NCBI RefSeq assembly: GCF_000384375.1
Contig: NZ_ARVX01000001.1
Coordinates: 2,046,001-2,110,000 of the forward strand
Direction: 5' to 3'
From: Methylotenera versatilis 79
Lineage (GTDB): Bacteria; Pseudomonadota; Gammaproteobacteria; Burkholderiales; Methylophilaceae
DNA length: 64,000 bases
How positions within the stretch are numbered: position 1 is the first letter of the stretch; each line of letters starts with the position of its first letter. Below, piece after piece: positions 43,738-62,037 of the stretch. The position numbers and the translations under genes are program-made. Under the pieces are notes generated by a model. The model did not search any database. It had not been told where the DNA came from and saw only the letters and a program-made list of their open reading frames with translations.

Positions 43738-43789
43738 TGAAATGTACGGTGATGCACTTAAGCGTATGAATTCAATCAAATTTTTATAT

Positions 43790-43804
43790 GGCACAGTCCT
43801 TGCC
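43790..43804 (+). promoter_or_regulatory. Sigma-54 promoter of ssuD operon
   Basis: TGGCACAGTCCTTGC matches the consensus TGGCAC-N5-TTGC perfectly, 66 bp before the ssuD ATG. Confidence 0.88.
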
Positions 43805-43870
43805 ACTATTACTGCAACTTCGTAGCAACATTTGACTGCTGCATTCAGTATTTGGCATAAGGAAAACAAT

Positions 43871-45016
43871 ATGGAAATATTTTGGTTTTTACCAACACAT
43901 GGTGACCAACGATATTTGGGTACTTCAATCGGCGCAAGACCAGCAACTTTTAGTTACTTGAAACAAATCGCACAATCGGCAGACAGGCTTGGTTATAAAG
44001 GCGTATTAGTGCCATCTGGGCGTTCTTGCGAAGACCCTTGGGTGGTCACTTCTGCATTAGTTAACGAGACTAAACAATTAAAATTCTTGGTAGCAGTGCG
44101 TCCAGGTTTTGTGTCACCAACGGTGTCAGCAAGAATGGCTTCTACGTTAGATCGTATTTCTGGTGGGCGTTTGCTGATTAACCTTGTGGCGGGTGGCGAC
44201 CCAGCTGAGCAGCAAGCAGATGGCAGTTTTTTATCGCATGACGAACGTTACAAAGAAGCCGATGAATTTTTAGCCGTATGGAAAGCAGCGCTGACTGGCG
44301 AAACCATTAGTTTAGATGGCGATTACATTAAAGTAAAAGGCGCAAATATCCCAACCGGCTCAGTTCAAAAACCTTATCCGCCATTATTTATCGGTGGTTC
44401 ATCAGATGCAGCGATTGAGCTTAGCGCTAAACATATCGATGTACATTTAACTTGGGGTGAGCCGCCACAGGCTGTTGCAGAAAAAGTAAATGTGGTGCGC
44501 GCAGCCGCTTTAAAACATGGCAGAACGGTTAAGTTTGGTATTCGATTGCATGTGATTGTGCGCGAAATCAGTGAAGAGGCTTGGCAAGCTGCCGATGATT
44601 TGATTTCGCATGTCACAGATGAAACCATTGCTGCTGCACAAGCAGCAGTTGCTAAATTCGATTCTGTCGGCCAACAAAAAATGACGGCGCTGCATAATGG
44701 ACGACGCGACAAATTAGAAGTTGCACCGAATTTATGGGCTGGCGTTGGCTTAGTCAGAGGCGGAGCGGGCACTGCGTTAGTTGGTAACCCAGAAGAAGTC
44801 GCTGCCAGAATCAAAGAATATCAAGCCATCGGTATCGATTACTTTATTTTCTCCGGCTATCCACATCTGGAAGAATCTTATCGTGTTGCTGAATTGCTAT
44901 TTCCATTACTGCCATTGGAAATTGATGGTGAGCATGAAGCCAGTATTAAAACCAATATGACTGGGCCGTTTGGTGAAGCGCTCAGCCAATCAACAAAACA
45001 TGCTGCAGCGTCGTAA
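43871..45016 (+). CDS. ssuD: FMNH2-dependent alkanesulfonate monooxygenase
   Basis: A 381-residue TIM-barrel monooxygenase that breaks the C-S bond of alkanesulfonates, releasing sulfite. It aligns throughout with E. coli Ssu[81 protein letters not shown]. The start ATG 43871 gives the SsuD-type N-terminus. First gene of a plus-strand operon with an SfnB/DszC-like enzyme, an amidohydrolase-like protein and ribB, under the strong sigma-54 promoter. No ssuABC transporter genes lie beside it. Confidence 0.95.
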
Positions 45017-45041: not shown

Positions 45042-46331
45042 ATGAGCATAAACAGTAGTGAACTCTTAACTAAGCCAATTGAAACTAGGCCGACCGAAAA
45101 TATTGAGCAAAAAAAAGTGTTAAGTAAAGCGTTAGGCAATGAGTTAAGTCCAAAATTTAGCCATAACTCGCAACAAAGCCCGCAACAAATCGCAGAGCAA
45201 TTGAGTGCATATTTGGCGCTAACCGCGGCTGAGCGCGATGAGCAAGGCGGAACGCCTTATGCACAAAGACAAGCGATTCGTGATAGTGGTTTGCTCAAAT
45301 TATTGATTCCGCAAGAGTTGGGCGGATTAGGCGGTAGTTGGGCAGAGATTTACAAAATCATCCGCACAATCGCCAAAGTAGACAGCTCAATCGCGCAGGT
45401 TTTTGCCTTTCAGTTTTTAATGCTGACATCCATTCGTTTATACGGCTTAAAAGACCAATGGAAAAGTTTGTTTAGAGAAACCGCCAGTAAAAATATGTGG
45501 TGGGGCAACGCACTTAACCCGTTAGATAATCGAACAATTGCTACGCGCGCAGATGGGTATTTGGTTTTTAATGGACAAAAAAGCTTTTGCTCTGGCGCCA
45601 CTGATTCTGATTTTTTAATTATTTCTGCAATCGAGCAAGACACCAATCGATTTATTGTCGCCGCGGTTCCAACAAAGCGCGACGGCATTCAACTGAATGG
45701 TGATTGGGACAATATGGGCCAACGCCAAACGGACAGTGGTAGCGCAGAATTCAACAATCTAAGGGTTGAATATGACGAGCTTTTAATGAATCCCGGACCG
45801 TTAAGTTCGCCATTTTCTAGCTTACGTTCATTAGTCGCCCAGTTGATTTTCACTAATATTTATTTGGGTATTGCAGAAGGCGCGTTAGAAGAGGGCGTGA
45901 AATATACGCAGAAAAACTCACGCGTGTGGTCAGCATCTTTAGCACAAAATATTCAAGAAGACCCTTATACATTGCTGCACTACGGGGAATTTTGGTCGGG
46001 TTTACATGCAGGCAGCGTATTGGCTGATCATGCTGCTAATTTACTTGATAGCGCGTGGCAACAAGACATTGACTTAAGCGATGAAGAACGCGGAAAAGTG
46101 GCGCTGGCGGTGTTTTCTGCCAAAGTGAATATTACCAAAGCTGGCTTAGATGTGACTTCGCGCGTGTTTGAAGTGGCTGGCGCAAGAGCGACGACTGCAA
46201 AACTTCGCATGGATAGATATTGGCGCAACTTGCGTGTTTACACTTTGCATGATCCAGTAGATTACAAATTAAAAGACTTGGGTGATTGGGCGCTAAATGG
46301 CGCTTATCCGACACCTAGTTTTTACTCTTAA
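45042..46331 (+). CDS. SfnB/DszC-like flavin-dependent monooxygenase-type protein (2)
   Basis: A 429-residue acyl-CoA-dehydrogenase-fold protein, paralogue of the gene at 42258-43466 and sharing its key phrases: [113 protein letters not shown]. The N-terminal 45 residues are an extra polar extension. It likely oxidises an organosulfur compound with FMNH2. It starts 25 bp after ssuD. The two paralogues flank one shared control region, suggesting a two-part enzyme or two substrates. Confidence 0.82.
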   Translation: MSINSSELLTKPIETRPTENIEQKKVLSKALGNELSPKFSHNSQQSPQQIAEQLSAYLALTAAERDEQGGTPYAQRQAIRDSGLLKLLIPQELGGLGGSWAEIYKIIRTIAKVDSSIAQVFAFQFLMLTSIRLYGLKDQWKSLFRETASKNMWWGNALNPLDNRTIATRADGYLVFNGQKSFCSGATDSDFLIISAIEQDTNRFIVAAVPTKRDGIQLNGDWDNMGQRQTDSGSAEFNNLRVEYDELLMNPGPLSSPFSSLRSLVAQLIFTNIYLGIAEGALEEGVKYTQKNSRVWSASLAQNIQEDPYTLLHYGEFWSGLHAGSVLADHAANLLDSAWQQDIDLSDEERGKVALAVFSAKVNITKAGLDVTSRVFEVAGARATTAKLRMDRYWRNLRVYTLHDPVDYKLKDLGDWALNGAYPTPSFYS

Positions 46332-46350
46332 TATAAAAAGACCGCATAAA

Positions 46351-47205
46351 ATGACACAAAAAATTATCGATATGAGAAGTCGTCCAGCGTATTTACATGA
46401 CTTTTTTGGCGCGACACCGAATACACTTGAATATGAAACAGCCAAATGGCTGAATGAACGAGTCGGCTCAAAAGAAGTTGAGCATTTCAAACGTTCTTAC
46501 ACCATTGAAGGCTATCTAAAAGAAATTGAAGCAGCAGGCGTTAATAAAGCCGTGGTGGTTGGCCGCGAAACGCCATCTTTAACCATTAGTAATGAAGAAG
46601 TCGCAAAACTAGTCGCGCAAAGCCCTAAATTAGTTGGCTTGGGTTCTGTAGATATTCAAACCAGAGGCGAGAAAAATGCAGTGGCTGAAATCAATATTGC
46701 CATCAATCAACACCAATTTAAGGCCATCAATATAGAGCCTGGCTTTGGTGAACCAGTATTGCAAGCAGATGACCCCATTTTTTACCCAGTTTATGAAGAG
46801 TGCATTTATCACGATGTACCTGTTTGCTTGATGTCTGGCCCGACAACGCCAGACTTTGATTATGCGCAACCGAATGCAGTGGCAAGATTAGCCAGAAAAT
46901 ATTCTGCGCTGAATATCATTTGTTTTCATGGCTATTACCCGTATGTGAATGAAATCATTGGCGCAGCTTTTCGTTACAAAAATATCTATTTAGTGCCTGA
47001 TATGTACATTTTTCAGCCAGGTTCGCACTTATATGTTGAGGCAGCCAATGCCTTTTTGGGCGACCAATTGTTGTTCGGTTCTTCTTACCCATTTCGCGCG
47101 ATGAAGCAAACAGTGGATGATTTTACATCATTAGGGTTCAAGGAGTCTGTTTTAGATAAAGTGTTTTATAAGAATGCAGAAAGATTATTAAAAATAACAG
47201 CTTAA
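46351..47205 (+). CDS. Amidohydrolase-2-like protein lacking the HxH motif
   Basis: A 284-residue TIM-barrel protein of the amidohydrolase_2 family by its C-terminal half (PVYEECIYHDVPVCLMSG, LARKYSALNIICFHGYYPYVNEIIGAA, LLFGSSYPFRAMKQTVDDF). The usual N-terminal metal-binding HxH is replaced by IIDMRSRP, so a standard metal centre is doubtful. It may be a non-metal or altered hydrolase acting on a product of the sulfone/sulfonate pathway. ATG 46351 is chosen; the in-frame region upstream overlaps the previous gene. Confidence 0.7.
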   Translation: MTQKIIDMRSRPAYLHDFFGATPNTLEYETAKWLNERVGSKEVEHFKRSYTIEGYLKEIEAAGVNKAVVVGRETPSLTISNEEVAKLVAQSPKLVGLGSVDIQTRGEKNAVAEINIAINQHQFKAINIEPGFGEPVLQADDPIFYPVYEECIYHDVPVCLMSGPTTPDFDYAQPNAVARLARKYSALNIICFHGYYPYVNEIIGAAFRYKNIYLVPDMYIFQPGSHLYVEAANAFLGDQLLFGSSYPFRAMKQTVDDFTSLGFKESVLDKVFYKNAERLLKITA

Positions 47206-47248: not shown

Positions 47249-47962
47249 ATGAGTATAAATTTAGAAAATTTTAATTCAGTTAGCCAAGCCATCGATGCCA
47301 TCGCAAATGGTGAATTTGTAGTTGTTGTCGACGATACTGATCGCGAAAATGAAGGTGATCTAATTATTGCGGCTGAAAAAATCACCACCAGCCAAATGGC
47401 TTTTTTGGTTAGACACAGTAGCGGTTTGGTTTGCGTGGCATTAGGTGAAGAAAGATTGCAGCAGTTGCAACTACCATTGATGGTGGAAAACAATACCGAA
47501 TCACATAGAACGGCTTTTACAGTCAGCGTAGATTATAAATACGGCACTACCACTGGCATTTCTGCTGCTGATAGGGCAATCACATTACGCGCGTTGGCTG
47601 ACTCATCTGCACAGGCTTCAGACTTTTTAAGACCTGGACATATTTTTCCATTACGCTCAAGGTTAGGTGGTGTGTTAGAACGTCCTGGCCATACTGAAGC
47701 TGCTTATGATTTAGCTGCGCTGGCAGGGTTGAATCCTGTCGGTGTGTTGTGCGAGATTGTGAATGAGGATGGCAGTATGGCGCGCAGGCCAGATCTATTT
47801 TTATTCGGCAAAAAACATGGTTTAAAAATCATTACTATTGCAGATTTAATCACTTACAGAGAGCAGACTTTGCAACACCGATTTACCGATTACGGCGTGC
47901 ATACGAAAAGCCAAAAAAATTCGCAACGCTTATTAGACGCGGCGATTTTGTATGGTGTTTAA
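47249..47962 (+). CDS. ribB: 3,4-dihydroxy-2-butanone-4-phosphate synthase
   Basis: A 237-residue monofunctional RibB, the branch of riboflavin synthesis starting from ribulose 5-phosphate. It shows VVVDDTDRENEGDLIIAAEKIT (acidic loop), SGLVCVALGEERL, TGISAADRAITLRALAD, RPGHIFPLRSRLGGVLERPGHTEAAYDLAALAG and CEIVNEDGSMARRPDL. Betaproteobacteria often have fused RibBA, so separate RibA and RibB inside a flavin-monooxygenase cluster looks like a dedicated supply. Last gene of the ssuD operon. Confidence 0.93.
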   Translation: MSINLENFNSVSQAIDAIANGEFVVVVDDTDRENEGDLIIAAEKITTSQMAFLVRHSSGLVCVALGEERLQQLQLPLMVENNTESHRTAFTVSVDYKYGTTTGISAADRAITLRALADSSAQASDFLRPGHIFPLRSRLGGVLERPGHTEAAYDLAALAGLNPVGVLCEIVNEDGSMARRPDLFLFGKKHGLKIITIADLITYREQTLQHRFTDYGVHTKSQKNSQRLLDAAILYGV

Positions 47963-50702: not shown

Positions 50703-51947
50703 TTAAATCCAAGGATGCCGTGGTGGGTTAACACCATTTAAACTGTAATTTCCTACTGCGTGATATTTCCAGCGAACCGGGTCATGTAGCGTATGTGTAC
50801 GTGCATTGCGCCAATGGCGATCTAAATTGAATTCGCCTAATGTAGAACGTGTACCTGCTAATTCAAATAACTTGCTGCCCGCCAGTAATGCAGTTTCTGT
50901 ACTGAGCACTTTTGCCTCAGCCACTGCAATTGAAGCTGCGGCGACGGTTTCTTCATTGGCATCGATTTGTGCTTTGTCAATAAAATCGCCAGCGCGGCTT
51001 AATAATGCTTCAGTTGCATGAATACGGATTTGCAGGTCACCGATATCTTTAATGGTGTGTGGGTCATCATAGCCGTGCTCAAGTTCTGTATCAATCCAAG
51101 GGCGTGTATGATTGCGCACAAAATATAAAGTATCTTTAAAAGCAGCGCGAGCAATACCCGTATCCACTGCCGCTTGGATAATCTGTGCAACAGGGCCCAT
51201 TACGGTAGGGCGATCAAACGCTAAATGGTGTGGTAATACGTATTCTGTTGGGATAAAGATATTATCTAGGATAGTCGTGCCGCTGGCCGTGGTACGTTGA
51301 CCAAAGCTTGACCAATCATCAATAATCGTCAGGCCTTTAGCGCCTTTTTCTACAAATGCGACAATCGTATTATCGTTTTCATCTTTGGCAACTACTGGCA
51401 CCCAATCGGCCAATAATGCGCCAGATGAATAGAATTTCTTGCCAGAAAGCAAATAGCCGCCGTCAGTTGGTTTAAGACGTGTTTGCACGTCATTAACACT
51501 TTTTGTGCCGATTTCTGAGAATGCATTACCAAATCTCACACCTTTTAACACTAAATCAAAAAAGAATTTTTTCTGAAATTCAGTGCCGTCTAGCCTTAAA
51601 CCTTCCACCATATACAAATGGTTTTGTGGAATCTGCCCAATGCTAGGGTCTGCTTCCGAAATGATGCTGACTACTTCGGCCAATGTTCTGTTGGCTACAA
51701 AAGCGCCGCCGTATTCTTTTGGCACCGTAATGCCCCACAAACCGCTGCTGGAATATAAATCTAATTCTGCACGTGGCAAACGGCGTTCTCTGTCGCGCAA
51801 GGCGGCTTCTTTAGCGATTTCTGCGGCGACTCTTTTTGCTACTTCAATCGCCTCTGCGTCATTTTTAATGATGTGCGCATGTGGTCTTGGTGCGATGTTG
51901 ATGTGCTCTTGACTGGTGTGTTCTTGCTTTAATGCGGATAGTGACAT
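50703..51947 (-). CDS. sfnB: SfnB family sulfur acquisition oxidoreductase
   Basis: A 414-residue acyl-CoA-dehydrogenase-fold flavoprotein of the SfnB family: [146 protein letters not shown]. SfnB is encoded with sfnG in sulfone-using bacteria. It is transcribed divergently from msuE-sfnG with a sigma-54 promoter about 90 bp upstream. Confidence 0.9.
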   Translation of the reverse strand: MSLSALKQEHTSQEHINIAPRPHAHIIKNDAEAIEVAKRVAAEIAKEAALRDRERRLPRAELDLYSSSGLWGITVPKEYGGAFVANRTLAEVVSIISEADPSIGQIPQNHLYMVEGLRLDGTEFQKKFFFDLVLKGVRFGNAFSEIGTKSVNDVQTRLKPTDGGYLLSGKKFYSSGALLADWVPVVAKDENDNTIVAFVEKGAKGLTIIDDWSSFGQRTTASGTTILDNIFIPTEYVLPHHLAFDRPTVMGPVAQIIQAAVDTGIARAAFKDTLYFVRNHTRPWIDTELEHGYDDPHTIKDIGDLQIRIHATEALLSRAGDFIDKAQIDANEETVAAASIAVAEAKVLSTETALLAGSKLFELAGTRSTLGEFNLDRHWRNARTHTLHDPVRWKYHAVGNYSLNGVNPPRHPWI

Positions 51948-52027
51948 TGCTACTCCTTATAAAAATCGCTGATTAATTTCGTCGTTAGCACACGATTAAA
52001 CGCGCGCGTATCAATACCAAAGTGATT

Positions 52028-52042
52028 GCATTTAGTGTGCCA
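52028..52042 (-). promoter_or_regulatory. Sigma-54 promoter of sfnB, minus strand
   Basis: Minus strand reads TGGCACACTAAATGC: TGGCAC, N5, ATGC with GG-N10-GC, about 81 bp before the sfnB start. Confidence 0.8.
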
Positions 52043-52311: not shown

Positions 52312-52326
52312 TGGCATAGTTACTGC
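52312..52326 (+). promoter_or_regulatory. Sigma-54 promoter of msuE-sfnG operon
   Basis: TTGGCATAGTTACTGC has GG and GC separated by 10 bases; consensus TGGCAC-N5-TTGC with minor changes, about 107 bp before msuE. Confidence 0.75.
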
Positions 52327-52432
52327 TCTGATATACCTAGATAAGTATTAACGCAAATTAGTATTTGCAATGGCCGTTTTTAATCCTGCATAAAAGGACA
52401 AATGAAATGGCAATTTTTAATTAGGAGTCACG

Positions 52433-53014
52433 ATGAGTAACAGATTAAAAGTAACGGCTGTATCAGGTAGCTACAAAATCCCATCCAGAACTACAGCGAT
52501 TATTGAAGAGTTAACACAACGATTGGGCAAACAAATCCCGATTGATTTACATCTGATTGAGTTGAGCAATATCGCGCCCGATTTAGTTGCCTCGTTTAAT
52601 CCAGCGGATTTGCCAAGTAATGTTCAAAGAGACATTGACGCGATTGAAAACGCCGATTTATTGATTGTCGCGACACCAGTTTATCGCGCTTCATACACCG
52701 GTTTATTCAAACATTTATTCGATTTGGTTAATTACGAATCATTGTTTGATGTGCCAGTTTTGCTGGCAGCAACTGGCGGCAGTGAGCGTCATGCGTTGAT
52801 TATCGATCACGAATTACGTCCACTTTTTAGCTTCTTTCAAGCGTTAACTTTACCTGTAGGCGTGTACGGAACAGAAGCAGACTTTGTGAATTACAAAGTG
52901 AATAACCCGATTTTGAGTGCGCGCATTGATTTAGCAATTGAACGTGCGCTGCCATTGCTTAAGCATCGCGAACTGGCCAATAGCCTTACGTCTGCCAAGT
53001 TGGCGATTGCCTAA
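52433..53014 (+). CDS. msuE: NADH-dependent FMN reductase MsuE
   Basis: A 193-residue flavodoxin-fold FMN reductase matching MsuE: VTAVSGSYKIPSRTTAIIEEL, ADLLIVATPVYRASYTGLFKHLFDLVNY, VLLAATGGSERHALIIDHELRPLFSFFQALTLPVGVYGTEADF. It delivers FMNH2 to SfnG, SsuD and the SfnB-like enzymes. First gene of a sigma-54-driven operon with sfnG. An AGGAG ribosome site precedes the ATG. Confidence 0.93.
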   Translation: MSNRLKVTAVSGSYKIPSRTTAIIEELTQRLGKQIPIDLHLIELSNIAPDLVASFNPADLPSNVQRDIDAIENADLLIVATPVYRASYTGLFKHLFDLVNYESLFDVPVLLAATGGSERHALIIDHELRPLFSFFQALTLPVGVYGTEADFVNYKVNNPILSARIDLAIERALPLLKHRELANSLTSAKLAIA

Positions 53015-53057: not shown

Positions 53058-54161
53058 ATGAGTACACCAAATAATCAGCAAGAAGCAGTTAAATTCGCTT
53101 ACTGGGTGCCGAATGTGAGTGGCGGCTTAGTGGTGAGTAATATCGAGCAGCGCACTAGCTGGGATTTCGAATACAACAAAAAATTAGCGCAAATCGCCGA
53201 AAAAAGTGGCTTTGAATATGCGTTAAGTCAGATTCGTTTTACGGCGGGTTATGGCGCGGAATTCCAACATGAATCTGTCTCTTTTTCGCATGCTTTATTA
53301 GCGGCAACTACTAAATTAAAAGTCATCGCAGCCATTTTGCCTGGCCCTTGGAACCCTGTTTTAGCGGCTAAACAATTAGCAACCATTGATATTCTCACCA
53401 AAGGTCGCGTGGCGATCAATGTGGTTTCCGGTTGGTTCAAAGGCGAGTTTTACGCAATCGGCGAACCTTGGTTGGATCATGATGAGCGCTATCGCCGTTC
53501 ACGCGAATTTATTGAAGTATTAAAAGGTATTTGGACGACAGATAACTTTACTTATACAGGCGATTTTTATCGTTTGCATAATTACTCATTAAAACCAAAA
53601 CCAATCCAACAACCTCATCCAGAAGTTTTCCAAGGCGGTAGCTCACGCGCAGCACGTGATAACGCAGCAGCCGTTTCAGATTGGTATTTCACCAATGGCA
53701 ACACGGTTGAAGGTATCAAAGCGCAAGTGGATGATATTCGCGCAAAAGCGGCTGTTAATAACCACCAAGTAAAAATCGGCGTGAATGCGTTTATTATCGC
53801 GCGCGAAACGGAAGAAGAAGCGAAAGCGGTATTGGCTGAAATCATTGCCAAAGCGAATCCTGATGCGGTTCACGGCTTTGCCAGCGAGGCGAAAAATGCA
53901 GGTGCAGCCAGCCCTGAAGGCGAAGGCAATTGGGCTAAATCGACTTATGAAGACTTGGTTCAGTACAACGATGGCTTTAAAACCAACTTAATCGGCACGC
54001 CACAGCAAATCGCAGAACGCATTATTGAATTAAAAGCGGTCGGTGTGGATTTGATCCTTTCAGCTTTCTTGCATTTTCAGGAAGAAGTGGCTTATTTCGG
54101 TGAAAAAGTATTGCCATTAGTGCGTGAGCTTGAAGCTAAAAAGTTGGCTATTGCAGCCTAA
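53058..54161 (+). CDS. sfnG: Dimethylsulfone monooxygenase SfnG
   Basis: A 367-residue FMNH2-dependent monooxygenase that splits dimethylsulfone to methanesulfinate. It matches SfnG almost end to end: FAYWVPNVSGGLVVSNIEQRTSW, QIRFTAGYGAEFQHESVSFSHALLAATTKLKVIAAILPGPWNPVLAAKQLATID, VVSGWFKGEFYAIGEPWLDHDERYRRSREFIEVLKGIW, FQGGSSRAARDNAA, NWAKSTYEDLVQYNDGF. It follows msuE by 43 bp and precedes the transporter genes. Confidence 0.96.
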   Translation: MSTPNNQQEAVKFAYWVPNVSGGLVVSNIEQRTSWDFEYNKKLAQIAEKSGFEYALSQIRFTAGYGAEFQHESVSFSHALLAATTKLKVIAAILPGPWNPVLAAKQLATIDILTKGRVAINVVSGWFKGEFYAIGEPWLDHDERYRRSREFIEVLKGIWTTDNFTYTGDFYRLHNYSLKPKPIQQPHPEVFQGGSSRAARDNAAAVSDWYFTNGNTVEGIKAQVDDIRAKAAVNNHQVKIGVNAFIIARETEEEAKAVLAEIIAKANPDAVHGFASEAKNAGAASPEGEGNWAKSTYEDLVQYNDGFKTNLIGTPQQIAERIIELKAVGVDLILSAFLHFQEEVAYFGEKVLPLVRELEAKKLAIAA

Positions 54162-54201: not shown

Positions 54202-55368
54202 ATGATCACAGACACTTTTCCTAATCTGCTCAACTTTCAGGCGTTTGATAAGCCTTTAAGCATCGCGATTCGCCATAAGCAACTAGGTATTTGGCATGAA
54301 AAGCGCTGGAGTGAATTGCACCAAGAGTTGCTGCAATTAGTGCAATTATTGAAAGAAAAGGGCTTTAAAGCGGGTGACACCTTATTTTTGTTAAGTCACC
54401 CGCGCCCAGAAGCGTTATTGCTGTCAATCGCTGCACATTGGTTGGGTGGTATTGCTGCGCCATTGGATCCGGCTTATGCAAAATCAAAAGTTTCTGCGCT
54501 ATTAAATGCGTTACAACCAGCATTTATATTTGCAGAAGGTCAGTTGCAGGTTGATCAGATTTTGAATCTAGGTTTATCGCAAAAACTTATTATCTATGCG
54601 GATGCGAGAGGCTTGTCGCATTACGAAAATGCAACGTTGCAGGCTTATGCAGCCATCAAAAACCTTCAGCCGATCGATTATTTAAAACAACTATCTGTTG
54701 CCGAGCCAGAACACACGGCTTTTGTGTTTTATCGCCTAAATGAGAATGGCGATGTTAATTTGCAGCAGTTGTCACATGCAGAAATGCTGGCGCAAGGCCG
54801 TAAACTAGTGAAACAAGAAGTGTTGACAGCACATGAAGAAGCGCTGGCAGCGCGTGCCTTTGCAGCAAGTGGTCATGTGCGTTATTTACTATCACCTTGG
54901 TTATTGGCGGGTTTTAAACTCAATTTCCCTGAAAATATCGATACAAGAGACATCGATAGAAGAGAACTTGGACCAACCTTGGTTGCGGGCACATCTGCCA
55001 CTTATCAGCGGCTGCATGCCTTGGTCGAATCGCGTTTACCGCTGCCCAATACATTGCACAGGCGCTTATTCGATTGGGCAATTTCAACTAGCAAAATTGA
55101 TTTTTTTCTACGCAGATTGATTGCTTATTGGCTGATTACCCGGCCTTTGCGAGATGTGATTGGTTTTAGCCGTACAAGAGTTCCGTTGTTGGTGGGCGAA
55201 AGATTACCTGCAAAATCGGCACTATTTTTTGCTTCGATTGGCATTCACGTTAAAAATTGGCCTGATGTCGCAGATTGGCAGCAATCCAATATCAAGGCGA
55301 ATATTCCAAAAATTGAGTCAAAAAAAGTGTTAAGTCAGCAGCTTAAACAAGCTGGAGCGACCGCATGA
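54202..55368 (+). CDS. Shortened AMP-ligase-like protein without catalytic motifs
   Basis: A 388-residue protein resembling the N-terminal half of an acyl-CoA synthetase/AMP-ligase, the kind that heads many Liv-type transporter operons (usually over 600 residues). Residues about 30-110 match the ligase opening (GIWHEKRWSELHQEL, LLSHPRPEALLLSIAAHWLGGIAAPLDPAYAKSKVSALLNALQPAFIFAE). Where the ATP-binding TSGTTGxPKG box should follow (about 173-193) it reads VFYRLNENGDVNLQQLSHAEML. It then stops before the C-terminal ATP/ligation domain. It therefore cannot activate acids normally; a regulatory or structural role in the operon is inferred. The start lacks a clear ribosome site. Confidence 0.7.
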   Translation: MITDTFPNLLNFQAFDKPLSIAIRHKQLGIWHEKRWSELHQELLQLVQLLKEKGFKAGDTLFLLSHPRPEALLLSIAAHWLGGIAAPLDPAYAKSKVSALLNALQPAFIFAEGQLQVDQILNLGLSQKLIIYADARGLSHYENATLQAYAAIKNLQPIDYLKQLSVAEPEHTAFVFYRLNENGDVNLQQLSHAEMLAQGRKLVKQEVLTAHEEALAARAFAASGHVRYLLSPWLLAGFKLNFPENIDTRDIDRRELGPTLVAGTSATYQRLHALVESRLPLPNTLHRRLFDWAISTSKIDFFLRRLIAYWLITRPLRDVIGFSRTRVPLLVGERLPAKSALFFASIGIHVKNWPDVADWQQSNIKANIPKIESKKVLSQQLKQAGATA

Positions 55369-56141
55369 CGACTAATGAACATTTACTAAGCTTGAATAAT
55401 ATTTCGCTGTCTTTTAAAGGCGTTAAAGCGATTAACAATATTAGTTTTGCCGTCAATCGTGGTGAAATATGCGCGTTAATTGGCCCAAATGGTGCGGGCA
55501 AAAGCTCATTGCTGAATGTCATCAATGGTGTTTATCAAGCGGATGAAGGTGAGATCAATTTTGATGGTGAATCTAAAAAAAACATGAGCCCGCATCGTTC
55601 AGCACAACGTGGTATTGCGCGTACGTTTCAAAATATTGCGTTATTCAAAGGCATGAGCGTGTTGGATAACGTATTAACGGGGCGCAATTTAAAAGTAAAA
55701 AGCAGTTGGGTAGAGCAGGTATTCAATATCGGCCAAGCGCCAAATGATGCCGTTGTGCAAAGAAAAAAATCCGAAGAGATCATCGATTTTTTGAAGATTC
55801 AGCCTTGGCGTAGCAGCCTTGTCGGTAGCTTGCCATATGGTTTGCAGAAACGCGTAGAACTTGCGCGCGCTTTAGCCGCAGAGCCGAAATTGCTACTGCT
55901 GGATGAGCCGATGGCAGGCATGAACAGCGATGAAAAAGCCGAAATGAGCCGATTCATACTGGACACGCAACGTGAATTTGGTACGACGATTGTGTTGATC
56001 GAACATGATATTAGCGTGGTGATGGCGCTATCTAATCATGTGGTGGTTTTAGATTACGGTAAAAAAATCGGTGATGGTACGCCAGACGAAGTGCGCGCGA
56101 ATCCTGAAGTGATTGCCGCTTATCTTGGCACCAAACATTAA
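55365..56141 (+). CDS. Branched-chain-amino-acid-type ABC transporter ATPase (LivG-like)
   Basis: A 258-residue ATPase with Walker A GPNGAGKSS (40-48), Q-loop (RTFQNIALFKGM), signature SLPYGLQKRVELARALA, Walker B LLLLDEPMAGM and H-loop EHD. LivG-family features are clear. It overlaps the ligase-like gene by four bases (ATGA). With the two permeases, the second ATPase and the binding protein it makes a full importer, probably for an organosulfur substrate; substrate unproven. Confidence 0.92.
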   Translation: MTTNEHLLSLNNISLSFKGVKAINNISFAVNRGEICALIGPNGAGKSSLLNVINGVYQADEGEINFDGESKKNMSPHRSAQRGIARTFQNIALFKGMSVLDNVLTGRNLKVKSSWVEQVFNIGQAPNDAVVQRKKSEEIIDFLKIQPWRSSLVGSLPYGLQKRVELARALAAEPKLLLLDEPMAGMNSDEKAEMSRFILDTQREFGTTIVLIEHDISVVMALSNHVVVLDYGKKIGDGTPDEVRANPEVIAAYLGTKH

Positions 56142-56179
56142 TCGTTATATATAGATGTTAGCAATAGGAATCAATAAGC

Positions 56180-57061
56180 ATGAGTTTTTTCTTTGAAGTA
56201 TTAACGGGTGGCTTGCTGGCAGGGGTGATGTACTCGCTGGTCGCTATCGGTTTTGTGTTGATCTACAAAGCATCTGGTGTTTTTAACTTCGCACAAGGTT
56301 CTATGGTGCTTTTTTCTGCATTGACGTTTGTCAGCCTGCTAGAGCGTGGCGTACCTTTTTGGATTTCATTCATCATTACATTACTCATCATGCTGGTGCT
56401 GGCGTGGGCAATTGAGCGATTTGTGCTCAGAAAATTGGTTAACCGCTCACCCATTACCTTATTTATGGCGACATTAGGCTTAAGTTACATTATTGAAGGC
56501 TTGGCGCAAGCCGTTTGGGGTGCGCAGGTACATGCGTTGGATATTGGCGTCAGTGATGAACCGTTTGAGATTTTTGGCATGTTGCTGTCACAGTTCGACT
56601 TATTCGCCGCCGCAATCGCCGGTATTTTAGTAGCAGTTCTATCGTTTTTATTCAGCAAAACCCGCACCGGCATTTCATTGCGTGCAGTGGCAGATGACCA
56701 ATTAGCAGCCTTAGCCGTTGGTATCAAATTGAATCGCTTATGGTTCATCGTTTGGGGTGTGGCAGGCTTTGTAGGTTTGGTTGCAGGCTTGTTGTGGGGC
56801 GCGCGCGTCGGTGTGCAATTCTCATTGTCGCTGATTGTATTGAAAGCCTTACCAGTATTGATTATCGGTGGGTTTACTTCTATCGGCGGCGCAATTGTTG
56901 GTGGCTTGATTATCGGCTCATCCGAAAAGCTGGCTGAAGTATTCTTAGGCCCGTACATCGGCGGCGGTATAGAGAACTGGTTCCCTTATGTGTTGGCGAT
57001 GCTATTTTTACTAGTGCGACCATCCGGCATTTTTGGCGAACGCGCCATTGAACGAGTTTAG
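56180..57061 (+). CDS. Branched-chain-amino-acid-type ABC permease (LivH-like)
   Basis: A 293-residue membrane protein with about eight transmembrane helices and LivH-family phrases: GGLLAGVMYSLVAIGFVLIYKASGVFNFAQGSMVLF and ALPVLIIGGFTSIGGAIVGGLIIGSSEKLAEVFLGPYIGGG. Inner-membrane subunit of the importer encoded by this operon. It starts 38 bp after the ATPase gene. Confidence 0.92.
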   Translation: MSFFFEVLTGGLLAGVMYSLVAIGFVLIYKASGVFNFAQGSMVLFSALTFVSLLERGVPFWISFIITLLIMLVLAWAIERFVLRKLVNRSPITLFMATLGLSYIIEGLAQAVWGAQVHALDIGVSDEPFEIFGMLLSQFDLFAAAIAGILVAVLSFLFSKTRTGISLRAVADDQLAALAVGIKLNRLWFIVWGVAGFVGLVAGLLWGARVGVQFSLSLIVLKALPVLIIGGFTSIGGAIVGGLIIGSSEKLAEVFLGPYIGGGIENWFPYVLAMLFLLVRPSGIFGERAIERV

Positions 57062-57086
57062 CAGGCTGATTTTATGTGGATAGCTT

Positions 57087-58154
57087 ATGTTATATAGAGA
57101 AGCAGGACAGTTTATTACCGATTATCGCGCAGATAAATCGATCTTTCGGCTAAAACAAGAGCGCTGGGGATTCTATTTATTGTTGGCAATTGCATTCATA
57201 TTCATTCCATTTATTGGCAACGATTACTGGTTTAGCGCCATATTGATTCCGTTTTTAGTCTTGTCATTGGCAGGTTTAGGCTTGAATCTGCTAACCGGTT
57301 ATGCAGGTCAATTATCGTTGGGTTCAGCTGCGTTTATGGCGGTGGGTGCTTTTGCAGCTTATAACTTCCATTTGCGCATTGAAGGCTTGCCGTTTTTAGT
57401 CAGCTTTCTATTGGGTGGTTTTACTGCCGCCATCGTAGGCATTCTGTTTGGATTACCCAGCCTTAGAATCAAAGGTTTTTATTTGCTGGTTTCCACATTA
57501 GCGGCGCAGTTTTTTGTGTTGTGGGTATTTACTAATTTCTCTTGGTTTTCGAATAACAACTCATCTGGCGTGATCACTGCGCCGCAGTTAATCATTCTAA
57601 ATCATGATTTCAGCACGCCAGTTGGCCGATATTTGCTGACATTAGGCATTGTGGTTGTACTGGGTTTTCTAGCGAAAAGCATTGTACGAAGCGAGCTAGG
57701 TAGAAATTGGATGGCGGTTCGCGATATGGATACTGCTGCTGCCGTGATTGGTATCTCTATCCCTAAAACCAAATTATTGGCTTTCGGCATCAGTTCGTTT
57801 TTCCTTGGCATTGCTGGTTCGTTATGGGCATTCACTTATCTAGGCACTGTTGAGCCACACGGTTTCGATTTAACACGCTCTTTCCAGATTTTGTTTATCG
57901 TTATTATTGGCGGCATGGGCAGCATTTTGGGCAATTTTTTAGGCGCGGCATTTGTCATTTTGTTGCCTATCTTATTGTCGAATATTTCCATGAATCTATT
58001 GGCTGGTGCGATTGATCCAGGACAACTTGAGAACTTCCAAAAGATTATCTTTGGCGCGCTGATTATTTTCTTTTTGATTAAAGAGCCGAATGGTCTTGCT
58101 AAAGTCTGGCAGACATTCAAACAGCGTTCCAGAGTTTGGCCGTTGCGTTTTTAG
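57087..58154 (+). CDS. Branched-chain-amino-acid-type ABC permease (LivM-like)
   Basis: A 355-residue permease with a cytosolic N-terminus of about 28 residues, then around ten transmembrane helices. LivM-family segments are present: GLNLLTGYAGQLSLGSAAFMAVGAFAAY, VIGISIPKTKLLAFGISSFFLGIAGSLWAF and IIGGMGSILGNFLGAAFVILLP. Partner of the LivH-like protein. The start is ATG 57087, after a weak ribosome site. Confidence 0.92.
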   Translation: MLYREAGQFITDYRADKSIFRLKQERWGFYLLLAIAFIFIPFIGNDYWFSAILIPFLVLSLAGLGLNLLTGYAGQLSLGSAAFMAVGAFAAYNFHLRIEGLPFLVSFLLGGFTAAIVGILFGLPSLRIKGFYLLVSTLAAQFFVLWVFTNFSWFSNNNSSGVITAPQLIILNHDFSTPVGRYLLTLGIVVVLGFLAKSIVRSELGRNWMAVRDMDTAAAVIGISIPKTKLLAFGISSFFLGIAGSLWAFTYLGTVEPHGFDLTRSFQILFIVIIGGMGSILGNFLGAAFVILLPILLSNISMNLLAGAIDPGQLENFQKIIFGALIIFFLIKEPNGLAKVWQTFKQRSRVWPLRF

Positions 58155-58335
58155 ACTTAACACTCAAATTACTTAACTAAATTTATAGCTTAACTTTTAC
58201 ATCTTTTTAACTTAATCGCTTTAACTTACAGGAGTGCCTTTTGATGTGTTGATTACAAATATGTGCGAAAAACCAATTTTTATATAACTAAATAATATTA
58301 AAAATTATATTATTAAAACTAAGGAGTATATAAGT
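58155..58335. other. Intergenic stretch with repeated CTTAAC/TTAACTT elements
   Basis: About 180 bp between the permease and binding-protein genes. CTTAAC occurs at 58156, 58172 and 58189, and TTAACTT at 58207 and 58221, giving five related elements at 14-18 bp spacing. It may be a local control site or a simple-sequence drift; no promoter was confirmed. Confidence 0.4.
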
Positions 58336-59685
58336 ATGAGTATTTTTAAGAGGGCGACGCAGCTACTCGCCGCGTTAGGTTTGGGAGCGATGCTGCTTTC
58401 TGGCAACGCTCAAGCAGAAAATGAGCAATATTTTCCATTACAAAGCTATCGTATCGGGCCTTATGCGGCAGGTGGTTCAGGTTTCTTTGGTGGTTTCATT
58501 GATTATTTACAATACATCAATGCAAAAGATGGCGGTGTAAATGGGGTTAAATTCACTTGGAGCGAGTGCGAAACCGAGTACGTGGTTGAAAAAGGCGTTG
58601 AGTGTTATGAACGCCTTAAAAAAGGCTTAAACGGCGCACCAGCAGCAGCAACCAATCCATTGTCTGTCGGCATCGCTTACGCAACGCTTGATCGCTCAAC
58701 TGCAGACAAATTGCCGTTGATTACGATTAACCATGGCCGCACAGATTCTACTGATGGCAGCGTATTTCCGTATGCTTTCCCATTACAACTTAATCCGTAC
58801 AGTGAAGTGTCTGCAATCATCAATTACATCGGCACTCAATCAGGCGGTTTGGACAAACTGAAAGGTAAGAAAATCGTGACGCTGTATCACGGTTCACCTT
58901 ATGGTAAAGAAACGAGTCCGATTTTAGAGCTATTGGCTAAAAAATATGGCTTTGAACTGACTTTGCTAGAAGTACCGCATCCAGGTAACGAACAACAATC
59001 GCAGTGGCTCAATATTCGCCGTATCAAACCAGATTGGGTGATTTTACGCGGTTGGGGTGTGATGAACCCAGTGGCGCTTAAAACTGCGCAAAAAACTGGT
59101 TTCCCAGCTGATCATATTATCGGCAATATCTGGAGCAACTCAGAAGATGATGCAGCGCCTGCAGGTAGCGCAGCCAAAGGTTTCATCTCAATCACAACGC
59201 ATCCTTCCGGCACTAGCTTCCCAGTGTTACAAGGTATCGATAAATACGTGGTGAAAGCGGGTAAGGGCAATCTGCAAGACCCTAAACGTTTTGGTAATGT
59301 TTACTACAACTTAGGCGTGGTGAATGGCATCTTAAACGTTGAAGCGGTGCGTGTAGCACAAGCGAAATATGGCAAACGCCCATTAACTGGTGAAGAAGTG
59401 CGTTGGGGTTTTGAAAATATCAAACTGGATGATAAGCGCTTGAAAGAGTTGGGCGCTTTAGGCTTGGTGCAACCATTGAAATTAAGTTGCTCTGACCATG
59501 AAGGCGGCGGTGCTGTTCGCTTCCAACAGTGGGATGGCACAAAGTGGAAAGTTATTTCTGATTGGGTGCAAGCTGATCGCAAATTATTACGCCCAATTAT
59601 TGAAGAATCATCACATGCATATGCCAAAGAAAAAGGCATTACACCACGTGATTGCGCGAAAGAAGCTGTCGCTTTGGTTAAATAA
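58336..59685 (+). CDS. ABC transporter periplasmic substrate-binding protein (Liv type)
   Basis: A 449-residue Peripla_BP_6-type binding protein. Signal peptide with cleavage after AQA (residue 27); mature part has LQSYRIGPYAAGGSGFFGGFIDYLQYINAKDGGVNGVKFTW, NPLSVGIAYATLDRSTADKLPLITINHGRTDSTDGSVFPYAFPLQLNPYSEV. Two Cys (about 75 and 82) and two near the end (about 380 and 442) may form disulphides. The larger-than-usual size fits the family linked to acyl-CoA-ligase-type operons. Strong AAGGAG ribosome site. Confidence 0.9.
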   Translation: MSIFKRATQLLAALGLGAMLLSGNAQAENEQYFPLQSYRIGPYAAGGSGFFGGFIDYLQYINAKDGGVNGVKFTWSECETEYVVEKGVECYERLKKGLNGAPAAATNPLSVGIAYATLDRSTADKLPLITINHGRTDSTDGSVFPYAFPLQLNPYSEVSAIINYIGTQSGGLDKLKGKKIVTLYHGSPYGKETSPILELLAKKYGFELTLLEVPHPGNEQQSQWLNIRRIKPDWVILRGWGVMNPVALKTAQKTGFPADHIIGNIWSNSEDDAAPAGSAAKGFISITTHPSGTSFPVLQGIDKYVVKAGKGNLQDPKRFGNVYYNLGVVNGILNVEAVRVAQAKYGKRPLTGEEVRWGFENIKLDDKRLKELGALGLVQPLKLSCSDHEGGGAVRFQQWDGTKWKVISDWVQADRKLLRPIIEESSHAYAKEKGITPRDCAKEAVALVK

Positions 59686-59712
59686 TTAAAGTGATTAGAC
59701 AGAAGTAACTAT

Positions 59713-59740
59713 GCGCGCAAGGTTAACTAATCTTGCGCGC
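59713..59740 (+). terminator. GC-rich terminator or attenuator
   Basis: GCGCGCAAG / CTTGCGCGC makes a perfect 9-bp stem with a 10-base loop, then T-runs, 28 bp after the binding-protein gene. It lies before the last ATPase gene, so it may limit read-through. Confidence 0.75.
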
Positions 59741-59860
59741 AACTGTTTTTACTTTTTTGTTTTTTTTAAGTTTTATTTCGATTGAATCTGCAGCTTTATT
59801 TTTTCTGCGGGTATAACCGAAATTCTATTGAAAATTAAAGGTTAAGTTTTAAGGAAAAAC

Positions 59861-60658
59861 ATGTCAAATTCATCCGCAATACAGCCAGAACTAGTTCACC
59901 CAAAACTATCACAGCCACAACTTAACCCTATTTTAAAGCTAGAAAATATCGAGGTCATTTATGAAAAAGTGATATTCGCGATTAAAAATATCTCGCTTGT
60001 CGTAGGGCACAATTCTATTGTCGCCTTGCTGGGTGCGAATGGCGCAGGCAAAAGTACCACGCTTAAAGCTATATCAGGTTTGGCGAATGCGCAGCGTGGC
60101 GAAATTGTGAATGGCAGCATTCATTATCAAGGTAAAAATATCACCAAGGCGACGCCATCTCAATTAGTGGAAAGTGGCTTGGTGCAAGTGTTAGAAGGGC
60201 GCCATTGCTTTGCACATCTAAGTGTTGAAGAGAATCTACTCACAGGCGCATATATCAAGAATCCTTCTAAAGTAAAGCTCAAACAGCAATTAGATAAAGT
60301 GTACGAATATTTTCCAAGGTTAAAACTGTTAAGTAAAAATTTGGCTGGATACACTTCTGGCGGCGAGCAACAGATGGTCGCGATTGGCCGTGCCTTAATG
60401 GCAGAACCTAAACTGGTATTGTTAGACGAGCCATCGATGGGGTTAGCGCCGCAAATTGTAGAAGAGATATTTGAGATCGTTAAAAATTTAAAAGATACCG
60501 AAGGTTTGAGCTTTTTACTGGCAGAACAAAACGCAACGGTTGCGTTGCGTTATGCGGATTATGCTTATGTATTAGAAAGTGGATTAGTGACAAGTGAAGG
60601 AAGTGTCGAGCAGATCAATCAATCTAATCATCTGCAAAACTCTTATCTTGGAGGCTAG
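59861..60658 (+). CDS. Branched-chain-amino-acid-type ABC transporter ATPase (LivF-like)
   Basis: A 265-residue ATPase with an N-terminal extension of about 25 polar residues, Walker A GANGAGKSTT (about 58-67), signature TSGGEQQMVAIGRALM, Walker B KLVLLDEPSMGLAP and AEQNA loop typical of LivF. Fifth core component of the importer. It is separated from the binding-protein gene by a 175-bp gap with a terminator; an AAGGAAA ribosome site precedes the ATG. Confidence 0.93.
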   Translation: MSNSSAIQPELVHPKLSQPQLNPILKLENIEVIYEKVIFAIKNISLVVGHNSIVALLGANGAGKSTTLKAISGLANAQRGEIVNGSIHYQGKNITKATPSQLVESGLVQVLEGRHCFAHLSVEENLLTGAYIKNPSKVKLKQQLDKVYEYFPRLKLLSKNLAGYTSGGEQQMVAIGRALMAEPKLVLLDEPSMGLAPQIVEEIFEIVKNLKDTEGLSFLLAEQNATVALRYADYAYVLESGLVTSEGSVEQINQSNHLQNSYLGG

Positions 60659-60786: not shown

Positions 60787-61902
60787 TTAAAAGAAATGCG
60801 CGACATGGAAAATTACCTTAATGCCATCAATATCTGGCAAACCTTGATTGCGGCTCTCTTTAAAGTAAAAAGTATCGATACGCGTATTGCTGCTGCCGTT
60901 AATCAAATAACCTGCACCTATATCATAGCGTGACGTGGTGATGTTGCTGGTTTCATTATCAAACTTTTGATAACTCACTTTCGGCTGTATTTTGCCGATG
61001 CCAAATGTTTGCGGCAATGTGTAGCTGCCTAACACAAAAAATCCTTTACCTTGTGGCGCAAAAGCATCTAAGGTATTGTCATTATCATAGTTATAGTAAG
61101 AGGCTTCTGCACCAACCACGCCGCCACCTGAAACTGCTTTTTCTAAGCGGCCATCTAAATTCCAATATTGGTAATCACCTTTGTTTAACGCAGTGCCAGC
61201 GCCATCTGCTTGATAACGATAAGAGCCGCCAACGGATAGAATCGATTTTGCACCGTCATAACTGGCTAAATTGTAAAAGCCTGGTTCCGCATCCCAAAAG
61301 TTGTATTGCAATCTGGTTGCATACGACAAATTATCAGAGTCATTCGATAATCCATCGCGACCTTTGAAAGCACCTAATTGATATTTGAATGCTTGGTCTG
61401 CGCTGCCGCCCCAAAACGTTGCGCCGTCATCACGGCCACCAAAGCGATTCGGTGCTTGTTCTGCGATAGGAAAATCAAAGGTAGGCGGGTACATTGGCGC
61501 TGATGCAGATGCACGACTGGCTGGTGGCAAAAAGCGACCAATCCAAATGTTTGCGTAATTGTTAAATTCAAGACCTAAGTGCCCATCCAGTAGTTCTACT
61601 TTATTATCGGCAGAATTTCTGGCGAAGTTAAACTCAAAACCAATATTTTCATGCACTTTACCGTTTGTGTATAAACGTGCTTCTTCAACCGTAAAATCGT
61701 TCGATCTGTCTTTGCCATTTGGCGCGGCATCTTCAATAGAGCTATAACTGATTCTGGAAGCGACGCCAATATTGATAAATTGGTTTTCGCTTCTTTGAAA
61801 TGTGGCTTCAGCATTCGCATTCAAACTAGCGCCTGCCAAACTAGTTAACCCAGCTAAAACGACAAGATAACTCCATCGATGTTTAAAAAATTTATTCCTC
61901 AT
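60787..61902 (-). CDS. Porin of the phosphate-selective (OprO/OprP) type
   Basis: A 371-residue outer-membrane porin. Signal peptide ends ANA (about 31). The barrel contains FTVEEARLYTNGKVHENIGFEFNFARNS, LLDGHLGLEFNNYANIWIGRFLPPASRAS, and GAFKGRDG; the C-terminal Phe (VAHFF) is the expected sorting signal. The family forms anion-type channels. It is on the minus strand but carries its own sigma-54 promoter and UAS, so it belongs to the sulfur regulon; it may let organosulfur anions cross the outer membrane. Confidence 0.87.
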   Translation of the reverse strand: MRNKFFKHRWSYLVVLAGLTSLAGASLNANAEATFQRSENQFINIGVASRISYSSIEDAAPNGKDRSNDFTVEEARLYTNGKVHENIGFEFNFARNSADNKVELLDGHLGLEFNNYANIWIGRFLPPASRASASAPMYPPTFDFPIAEQAPNRFGGRDDGATFWGGSADQAFKYQLGAFKGRDGLSNDSDNLSYATRLQYNFWDAEPGFYNLASYDGAKSILSVGGSYRYQADGAGTALNKGDYQYWNLDGRLEKAVSGGGVVGAEASYYNYDNDNTLDAFAPQGKGFFVLGSYTLPQTFGIGKIQPKVSYQKFDNETSNITTSRYDIGAGYLINGSSNTRIDTFYFKESRNQGLPDIDGIKVIFHVAHFF

Positions 61903-62022
61903 AAAATTTCACCCTGAAAATAATTAATAAATTGATATTGGTGTGCCTATTTAGTCTTTGCGTCATATGCGTTCGAGGCATAAAACTTCCCTCAATAAAG
62001 AGGAGCACTACAAGGCTATATT

Positions 62023-62037
62023 GCACATTGCATGCCA
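62023..62037 (-). promoter_or_regulatory. Sigma-54 promoter of the porin gene
   Basis: Minus strand reads TGGCATGCAATGTGC: GG-N10-GC spacing is exact. About 121 bp before the porin start. Confidence 0.72.

Follow-up and report, generated by a model that had tools for sequence, protein, structure and literature searches.

A 64,000-nucleotide stretch of the Methylotenera versatilis 79 genome (contig NZ_ARVX01000001.1, positions 2,046,001 to 2,110,000; here called the window) contains a plus-strand operon in which a short gene related to AMP-forming ligases, which we call the pseudo-ligase, lies between sulfone genes and an ATP-binding cassette (ABC) importer of the Liv type. The order is msuE, sfnG, the pseudo-ligase, livG, livH, livM, a gene for a periplasmic binding protein and livF, with sfnB divergent upstream and a porin gene convergent downstream. 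The pseudo-ligase starts 40 bases 3′ of sfnG, and its stop overlaps the livG start as ATGA, read directly in the sequence. An earlier note on this DNA had described an intact 388-residue frame that directly follows msuE-sfnG and overlaps the next gene, all of which holds. The importer has the make-up of the HAAT class, with two ATPases, two BPD_transp_2 permeases and one Peripla_BP protein in a single operon, and none of its parts reached the Liv or Urt equivalog cut-offs in an NCBIfam profile search. The binding protein matched PDB 4RU0 over residues 10-441 (phmmer); this nearest solved relative bears a generic amino-acid name only.

Lost and retained features of the pseudo-ligase

The P-loop, the YGxTE box and the catalytic lysine of the C-terminal domain are the active-site motifs of AMP-forming ligases. 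Pfam AMP-binding (PF00501) matched the window protein at E 1.3e-15 and 57.6 bits (cut-off 29.9), over residues 31-347 and profile positions 19-310 of 384, and matched 28/28 family members at E up to 0.01. No Pfam match to a C-terminal ligase domain was found at E up to 1, and the protein stops before the catalytic-lysine domain. In alignments with full-length relatives, VFYRLNENGD occupies the place of YTSGTTGKPKG. The missing C-terminal domain and the replaced TSGTTG box were thus both as the earlier note had reported.

That note had treated the gene as a single reduced copy. It is instead one of a conserved family, for which we aligned 28 short forms from Methylophilaceae, other Burkholderiales, Methylococcales and Zoogloea (alignment A3). 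One sequence (L032, a duplicate of L025) was removed from A3; it was still counted in the 28-row motif comparison with 11 long forms, which we recounted on A3 without it. The P-loop [ST]SGTTG was present in 0/28 short forms versus 11/11 long forms and the YGxTE box in 0/28 versus 10/11, the exception (L088) being broken in assembly. The short proteins diverge or stop at the expected start of the YGxTE box. Since the P-loop, everything from this box on and the C-terminal domain are lost, the pseudo-ligase should not, judging from its sequence, form an acyl-adenylate by the usual mechanism.

Much of the remaining protein is constrained. Across the 28 short forms 38 positions are invariant, and the other 27 proteins share 26-59% identity with the window protein. 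The N-terminal ALRHKxLGIW region of full ligases is retained, and R24, K26, G29, W31 and W36 are among the residues common to both classes. At 37 positions the short class has switched residue or become newly fixed, and 14 of these lie within residues 228-278, a segment (YLLxPWLxAGFxLNFPEN..TRDxDRRELGPTLVAGT) that is strongly conserved in altered form. Within it, the charged residues of DxDRRE (250-255) are invariant; only the short forms have D250 and R253, whereas D252, R254 and E255 also occur in most of the long forms.

Distribution, origin and selection

Among 187 genomes of the family, 19 gave matches: 16 with an intact short form (the window's included), one with a split short form (G056) and two with ordinary ligases of ~610 residues and 20-23% identity. 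No match was found in the 14 other genomes of the same genus that were listed, some of them incomplete. Named carriers include Methylovulum psychrotolerans, Methylophilus sp. Leaf416, Methylococcaceae and Zoogloea metagenome-assembled genomes (MAGs), and megaplasmids of Paraburkholderia hospita and Caballeronia (one Caballeronia locus was read). In 399 genomes of the order, 137 matched at E 1e-20 or better; these include 10 short forms at identities of at least 46% (the window's included) and one divergent short form (G567), and the 14 others that we read were long ligases, L088 being the broken copy. One genome (G386) carries both forms. In 234 genomes of the phylum, searched at E 1e-25, the only short form among the matches listed was that of the window genome, the open frames of the others having at least 620 residues.

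In a tree of 40 ligase rows, the short forms make up one clade (support 100/99), with a 308-residue Zoogloea form inside, and this clade is sister to the Liv-linked long ligases of ~650 residues (100/94); one long ligase (L090) falls outside. The split copy (L043), L032, five near-copies and one outgroup were left out, and the branching order inside the short clade is unsure because of long branches, above all those of L087 and the 308-residue form. In our reading, the pseudo-ligase descends from the full-length AMP-forming ligase found at the head of many ordinary Liv importers. The statement that such importers are often headed by a full ligase agrees with our survey, in which livG lay directly downstream in 13 of the 14 long-ligase loci read (gaps up to ~0.6 kb included) and upstream in L090.

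Two loci carry still shorter forms. A further operon of a Zoogloea MAG (L026:16400-18560) comprises a sigma-54-like site, a porin-like frame (identified by eye) and the 308-residue pseudo-ligase, which overlaps livG; no sfnG lies beside it. In Eleftheria terrae (L198:3135-4031), a 298-residue "hypothetical protein" lies between sfnG and livG and overlaps livG. Profile comparison related this protein to the pseudo-ligases (E 4.8e-7, probability 92.5), and its Pfam AMP-binding score was 25.2 bits, below the cut-off of 29.9.

The ratio of nonsynonymous to synonymous substitution rates (dN/dS) of the pseudo-ligase was 0.053-0.154 in 12 close pairs, indicating purifying selection. We rejected the idea of a simple decay product on these ratios, the single-clade origin and the conservation of 28 members without P-loop or YGxTE box. 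Motif counts, tree and dN/dS all speak for a maintained, apparently non-catalytic protein and against simple recent decay.

The sulfone cluster and its sigma-54 sites

The order msuE, sfnG, pseudo-ligase, livGHM, binding protein and livF recurs in related loci, and so do promoter-like sequences. Counting -24/-12 sites that scored at least 9 of 11, with expectations from mononucleotide shuffles, we found a site before msuE in 28/29 loci (0.69 expected), before sfnB in 21/29 (1.09 expected), before the porin gene in 13/15 (1.23 expected) and before the ssuD-type gene in 13/31 (2.24 expected). The L028 porin and L027 ssuD-type genes were partial hits, scanned over some 20 kb; without them the last two counts were 12/14 and 12/30. 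Sites before the pseudo-ligase itself were few (4/27, 0.89 expected). In the Zoogloea locus L026, msuE lies outside the pseudo-ligase operon. Because the loci are related, these counts are not independent. In a scan of the whole window with one mismatch allowed, the pattern was not enriched (7 found, 4.65 expected), so the evidence is conservation in place. The conserved site before the convergent porin gene agrees with the proposed link of the porin to the regulon.

An SsuD-type monooxygenase, two DszC/SfnB-type monooxygenases and a sigma-54 activator are encoded approximately 6-11 kb upstream of msuE. We call one of the two DszC/SfnB-type enzymes MsuC-like and the activator SfnR-like, names that rest on context. 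Context gives good support for placing the importer in the sulfone cluster and regulon.

Table 1. Features of the operon and the sulfone cluster in the window
Feature	Position	Strand	Basis or remark
Sigma-54-dependent activator, SfnR-like by context	41134-42261	-	Profile search
DszC/SfnB-type flavin monooxygenase, MsuC-like by context	42258-43466	-	Below family cut-offs
Sigma-54-like site before ssuD-type gene	43789-43804	+	Pattern scan
ssuD-type alkanesulfonate monooxygenase	43832-45016	+	TIGR03565, 586.6 bits (cut-off 518.2)
Second DszC/SfnB-type flavin monooxygenase	45042-46331	+	Below family cut-offs
sfnB family oxidoreductase	50703-51947	-	TIGR04022, 646.6 bits (cut-off 430.9)
Sigma-54-like site before sfnB	52027-52042	-	Pattern scan
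Sigma-54 (-24/-12)-like site TGGCATAGTTACTGCT before msuE	52312-52327	+	Proposed promoter of the whole operon
msuE, FMN reductase	52433-53014	+	TIGR03566, 237.5 bits (cut-off 212.5)
sfnG, dimethylsulfone monooxygenase	53058-54161	+	TIGR04021, 611.4 bits (cut-off 382.95)
Pseudo-ligase, 388 residues, AMP-ligase-derived	54202-55368	+	Open reading frame, Pfam, alignment
livG-type ATPase	55365-56141	+	Pfam; proposed docking partner, E137 and R149 class-specific
livH-type permease	56180-57061	+	Pfam
livM-type permease	57087-58154	+	Pfam
Periplasmic binding protein, 449 residues	58336-59685	+	Peripla_BP_6
livF-type ATPase	59861-60658	+	Pfam
Porin, convergent to the operon	60787-61902	-	Own conserved sigma-54 site
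Sigma-54 (-24/-12)-like site TGGCATGCAATGTGCA before porin	62022-62037	-	Conserved in place

Three further genes lie in or near the cluster. The ribB gene (dihydroxybutanone phosphate synthase, flavin synthesis; 47249-47962) has homologues nearby in many related loci and perhaps supplies FMN. An amidohydrolase gene (46297-47205) overlaps the end of the second DszC/SfnB-type gene and likewise has homologues near the cluster in many related loci. A SelO/YdiU-family protein is encoded at 38906-40426.

In this genome (2.60 Mb, one contig) no SsuA-family binding protein scored over the cut-off; SsuB and SsuC were not searched for. The earlier note's observation that no ssuABC lies nearby thus stands for the SsuA-type binding protein and extends genome-wide. 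We rejected an SsuA-family match below the cut-off as a sulfonate binding protein, as it adjoins a nitrate-type permease that exceeds its own cut-off. A LivH search returned a single further match in this genome, at 25% identity; it is part of a urea importer, the UrtA and UrtB of which exceed their cut-offs. Amino-acid import is disfavoured, given the sulfone-specific cluster and the urea importer as the sole other LivH match.

Gene content elsewhere bears on the cargo. Three loci (L039, L042, L121) carry a second SfnG (58-59%) together with a second binding protein (71-73%) in the operon, and a second Liv importer without a ligase-like gene (L037:16494-19304) follows an NtaA/DmoA-family monooxygenase. 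These pairings suggest common substrates for binding proteins and flavin monooxygenases, and we infer that the cargo is an organosulfur compound.

Known systems resemble the operon in part. Ligase-headed Liv (HAAT) importers of Burkholderiales have the same order (ligase, livG, livH, livM, binding protein, livF) where the contig is long enough, and their parts are homologous (LivG 48-66%, binding protein 42-63% identity), but they carry a full ligase of ~650 residues with P-loop, and no sfnG was found beside them in the 14 loci read. Plasmid p6 of Rhizobium binae (msuE-sfnG-livG-livM-binding protein-livF-sfnB) shares the regulon genes and encodes a binding protein with 67% identity, but lacks a ligase-like gene; its LivG and LivF are 56% and 48% identical, and its livH is unannotated and in two pieces. 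In fold, as judged from a poor structure model, the pseudo-ligase is closest to ANL superfamily ligases such as the FadD5 N-terminal domain, from which it differs in the loss of the active-site motifs and C-terminal domain. The dimethylsulfone pathway of Pseudomonas and Acinetobacter likewise uses SfnG, MsuE and SsuD-type enzymes, but the transporter shown is SsuABC, and the parts of that paper available to us mention neither a Liv importer nor a pseudo-ligase (PMC13352529). Among the references of that paper is one to SfnR as a sigma-54-dependent activator of sfnFG in P. putida (PMC13352529). Among the matches listed in a literature search, no published description of the pseudo-ligase gene or of this importer was found. 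The transporter type itself is already known; it is the version in the sulfone regulon, with a pseudoenzyme, for which no description was found. Of the proposed new import route for sulfones or sulfonates, membership in the sulfone cluster and regulon thus stands, on the recurring order, the sigma-54 sites, the lack of SsuA over the cut-off and the assignment of the other LivH to urea, but the type of transporter is not new.

Partners and possible role of the pseudo-ligase

The pseudo-ligase is closely spaced to both neighbours. Over 26 measured loci its distance to livG was -4 in 14, -1 in 2 and 10-30 bases in 10, and that from sfnG was 8-46 bases in 25. The two neighbours come apart in Zoogloea L026, where sfnG, on the opposite strand, is 6-7 kb away from the pseudo-ligase and importer, and the pseudo-ligase heads livG. 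In G056 (L043:8831-9905), the split pseudo-ligase follows an ssuD-like gene, with no liv genes within the 20 kb read. The suggested survey of sfnG neighbourhoods gave a mixed answer: SfnG exceeded the cut-off in 17 of the 399 genomes of the order, 11 of which have the short form beside sfnG, but in three (G243, G360, G552) the importer lacks a ligase-like gene. In the remaining three (G289, G463 and G192, the last on a 7-kb contig), no such liv genes were seen beside sfnG. Relatives of the binding protein occurred in 134 plasmid records, mostly from Rhizobium and Agrobacterium; neither genus was among the 10 listed of 13 organism names for the pseudo-ligase.

Over 25 loci, the partial distance correlation with the pseudo-ligase was highest for LivG (0.57), followed by the binding protein (0.45) and MsuE (0.27), with the others between -0.07 (SfnG) and 0.17. 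Reruns gave 0.55 for LivG and 0.40 for the binding protein over 23 loci, and 0.52 and 0.27 over 22 loci, with -0.09 and 0.00 for SfnG; these pairs are not independent of each other. Compared with the core set, no-ligase importers had lower mean identities than long-ligase importers in LivG (53.4 vs 62.8%) and LivF (52.6 vs 58.0%), a similar one in LivM (59.3 vs 58.9%) and higher ones in LivH (70.3 vs 65.7%) and the binding protein (71.9 vs 52.1%); this comparison omitted the second-set rows, L084 and L090, and treated L026 and L141 separately from the core. Correlations and identities were redone without the LivF of L037 and L040, misassigned copies other than the operon's own, which gave 52.6 vs 58.2% for LivF. 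In the binding-protein tree, sulfone-linked proteins, with or without a ligase, are set apart from those of long-ligase loci (96, Shimodaira-Hasegawa-like approximate likelihood ratio test only, long branches present).

Two LivG residues follow the ligase-linked class. E137 and R149 were found in 42/42 LivG of the short and long sets and also in Eleftheria, but in 0/4 LivG of sulfone importers without a ligase-like gene; in outgroup LivG, E137 occurred in 1/8 and R149 in 0/8. A rooted LivG tree, built without L084, L090, seven near-copies and three outgroup rows, grouped the short-set and long-set LivG together with L026_2 and L037_2 (96/92).

The model that best fits these data is that of a Liv-type (HAAT) importer of the sulfone regulon with a conserved, ligase-derived pseudoenzyme as an accessory subunit touching LivG. 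We give this model roughly an even chance (about 0.5). A role as importer subunit is plausible, and LivG is the best candidate for the partner to which the protein would dock. Under sulfur limitation, the sigma-54 activator would turn on msuE, sfnG, the pseudo-ligase, livGHM, the binding-protein gene and livF, together with the porin, as the conserved promoter sites suggest. The importer would take up some small organosulfur compound, for instance a sulfone, sulfoxide, sulfinate or sulfonate, and, in the order of the known sulfone pathway, SfnG, the MsuC-like enzymes and the SsuD-type enzyme would convert it to sulfite. The pseudo-ligase would sit on the cytoplasmic face, touching LivG and stabilising or gating the ATPase.

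Several observations weigh against this model. Dimethylsulfone, a small uncharged molecule, might not require an importer. The importers without a ligase-like gene in G243, G360, G552 and Rhizobium binae indicate that the pseudo-ligase is not universally needed; since the sfnG of G552 and the livH of R. binae are each in two overlapping pieces, both of these systems may be damaged. The correlation with the binding protein is not predicted by cytoplasmic docking. In L037, whose first importer has a pseudo-ligase, the LivG of the second importer falls in the ligase-linked clade with E137 and R149, and these residues may simply mark a clade. As the opposite LivG tree was not rejected (approximately unbiased test, p 0.205), the tree argument for a ligase link is only suggestive. 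The dN/dS of the pseudo-ligase was highest or tied among eight operon proteins in 10/12 pairs, with LivF in two pairs represented by an L037 or L040 copy other than the operon's own. Structure prediction from six sequences yielded a poor model (pLDDT 54.7), on which Foldseek placed AMP ligases at the top, the best fold matches being the FadD5 N-terminal domain (PDB 8r2q, 8r2r); sequence-profile ranking placed a gramicidin synthetase chain (6mfy) first and FadD5 sixth and seventh. Finally, alkanesulfonate ABC transporters are reported in most sediment Methylophilaceae (PMC6794327) and ssuC and sfnG in Methylophilus (PMC8399692), so some relatives have another sulfonate route.

Other functions account for parts of these data. 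A soluble sensor of sulfur status, responding to sulfite, cysteine, CoA or an adenylylated sulfur compound and acting on the importer or the sigma-54 activator, would fit residues 228-278 being among the best conserved parts, and a ligase fold offers a natural small-molecule pocket; however, the nucleotide-binding motifs are gone, the ligands named are candidates only, and importers of the same regulon exist without the protein, making a sensor rather unlikely. We consider it less likely again that the pseudo-ligase serves SfnG, as a chaperone or in handing over flavin or an intermediate. Its place directly 3′ of sfnG in 25/26 measured loci would fit, but the Zoogloea L026 copy precedes livG at a distance from sfnG, the second Zoogloea copy has no sfnG beside it, the distance correlation with SfnG is absent, and long ligases head Liv operons with no sfnG found in 14/14 loci read, some on short contigs.

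Retained catalysis, through substrate binding, thioester handling or new chemistry independent of the P-loop, seems improbable: the invariant charges of DxDRRE, with D250 and R253 specific to the short forms, could serve it, but two active-site motifs are absent from 28/28 proteins, the C-terminal domain is missing, and the trimming to ~300 residues in Zoogloea and Eleftheria suits a surface better than an active site. Least probable of all is a functionless relic, open by chance. Its relatively high dN/dS within the operon, the split copy in G056 and the absence of the gene beside the four importers named above are what a relic might show, but the ratios are still low in all 12 pairs, 27 homologues keep 38 invariant positions, the single origin has spread over several families, and overlap or close spacing to livG is kept in 26/26 measured loci.

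The accessory-subunit model can be extended, tentatively and with considerable doubt, to a class of ABC importers in which an AMP-ligase is a true subunit docked on the ATPase. Ordinary members would activate the arriving cargo and in this way link import with CoA activation. Cargo of the sulfone branch lacks a carboxylate; there the subunit would have lost catalysis, kept docking and become regulatory, and would then have been trimmed to ~300 residues and lost in some lineages, with LivG E137 and R149 marking the docking site.

If the accessory-subunit model is correct, this bacterium, in which no SsuA-type binding protein exceeds the cut-off, and its relatives would have a dedicated importer of organic sulfur. 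The pseudo-ligase would also be a naturally occurring example of an enzyme that became part of a transporter, for which living species show each stage (full length, 390 residues, 300 residues and none), and the otherwise unexplained habit of ligases heading Liv importers would become directly testable.

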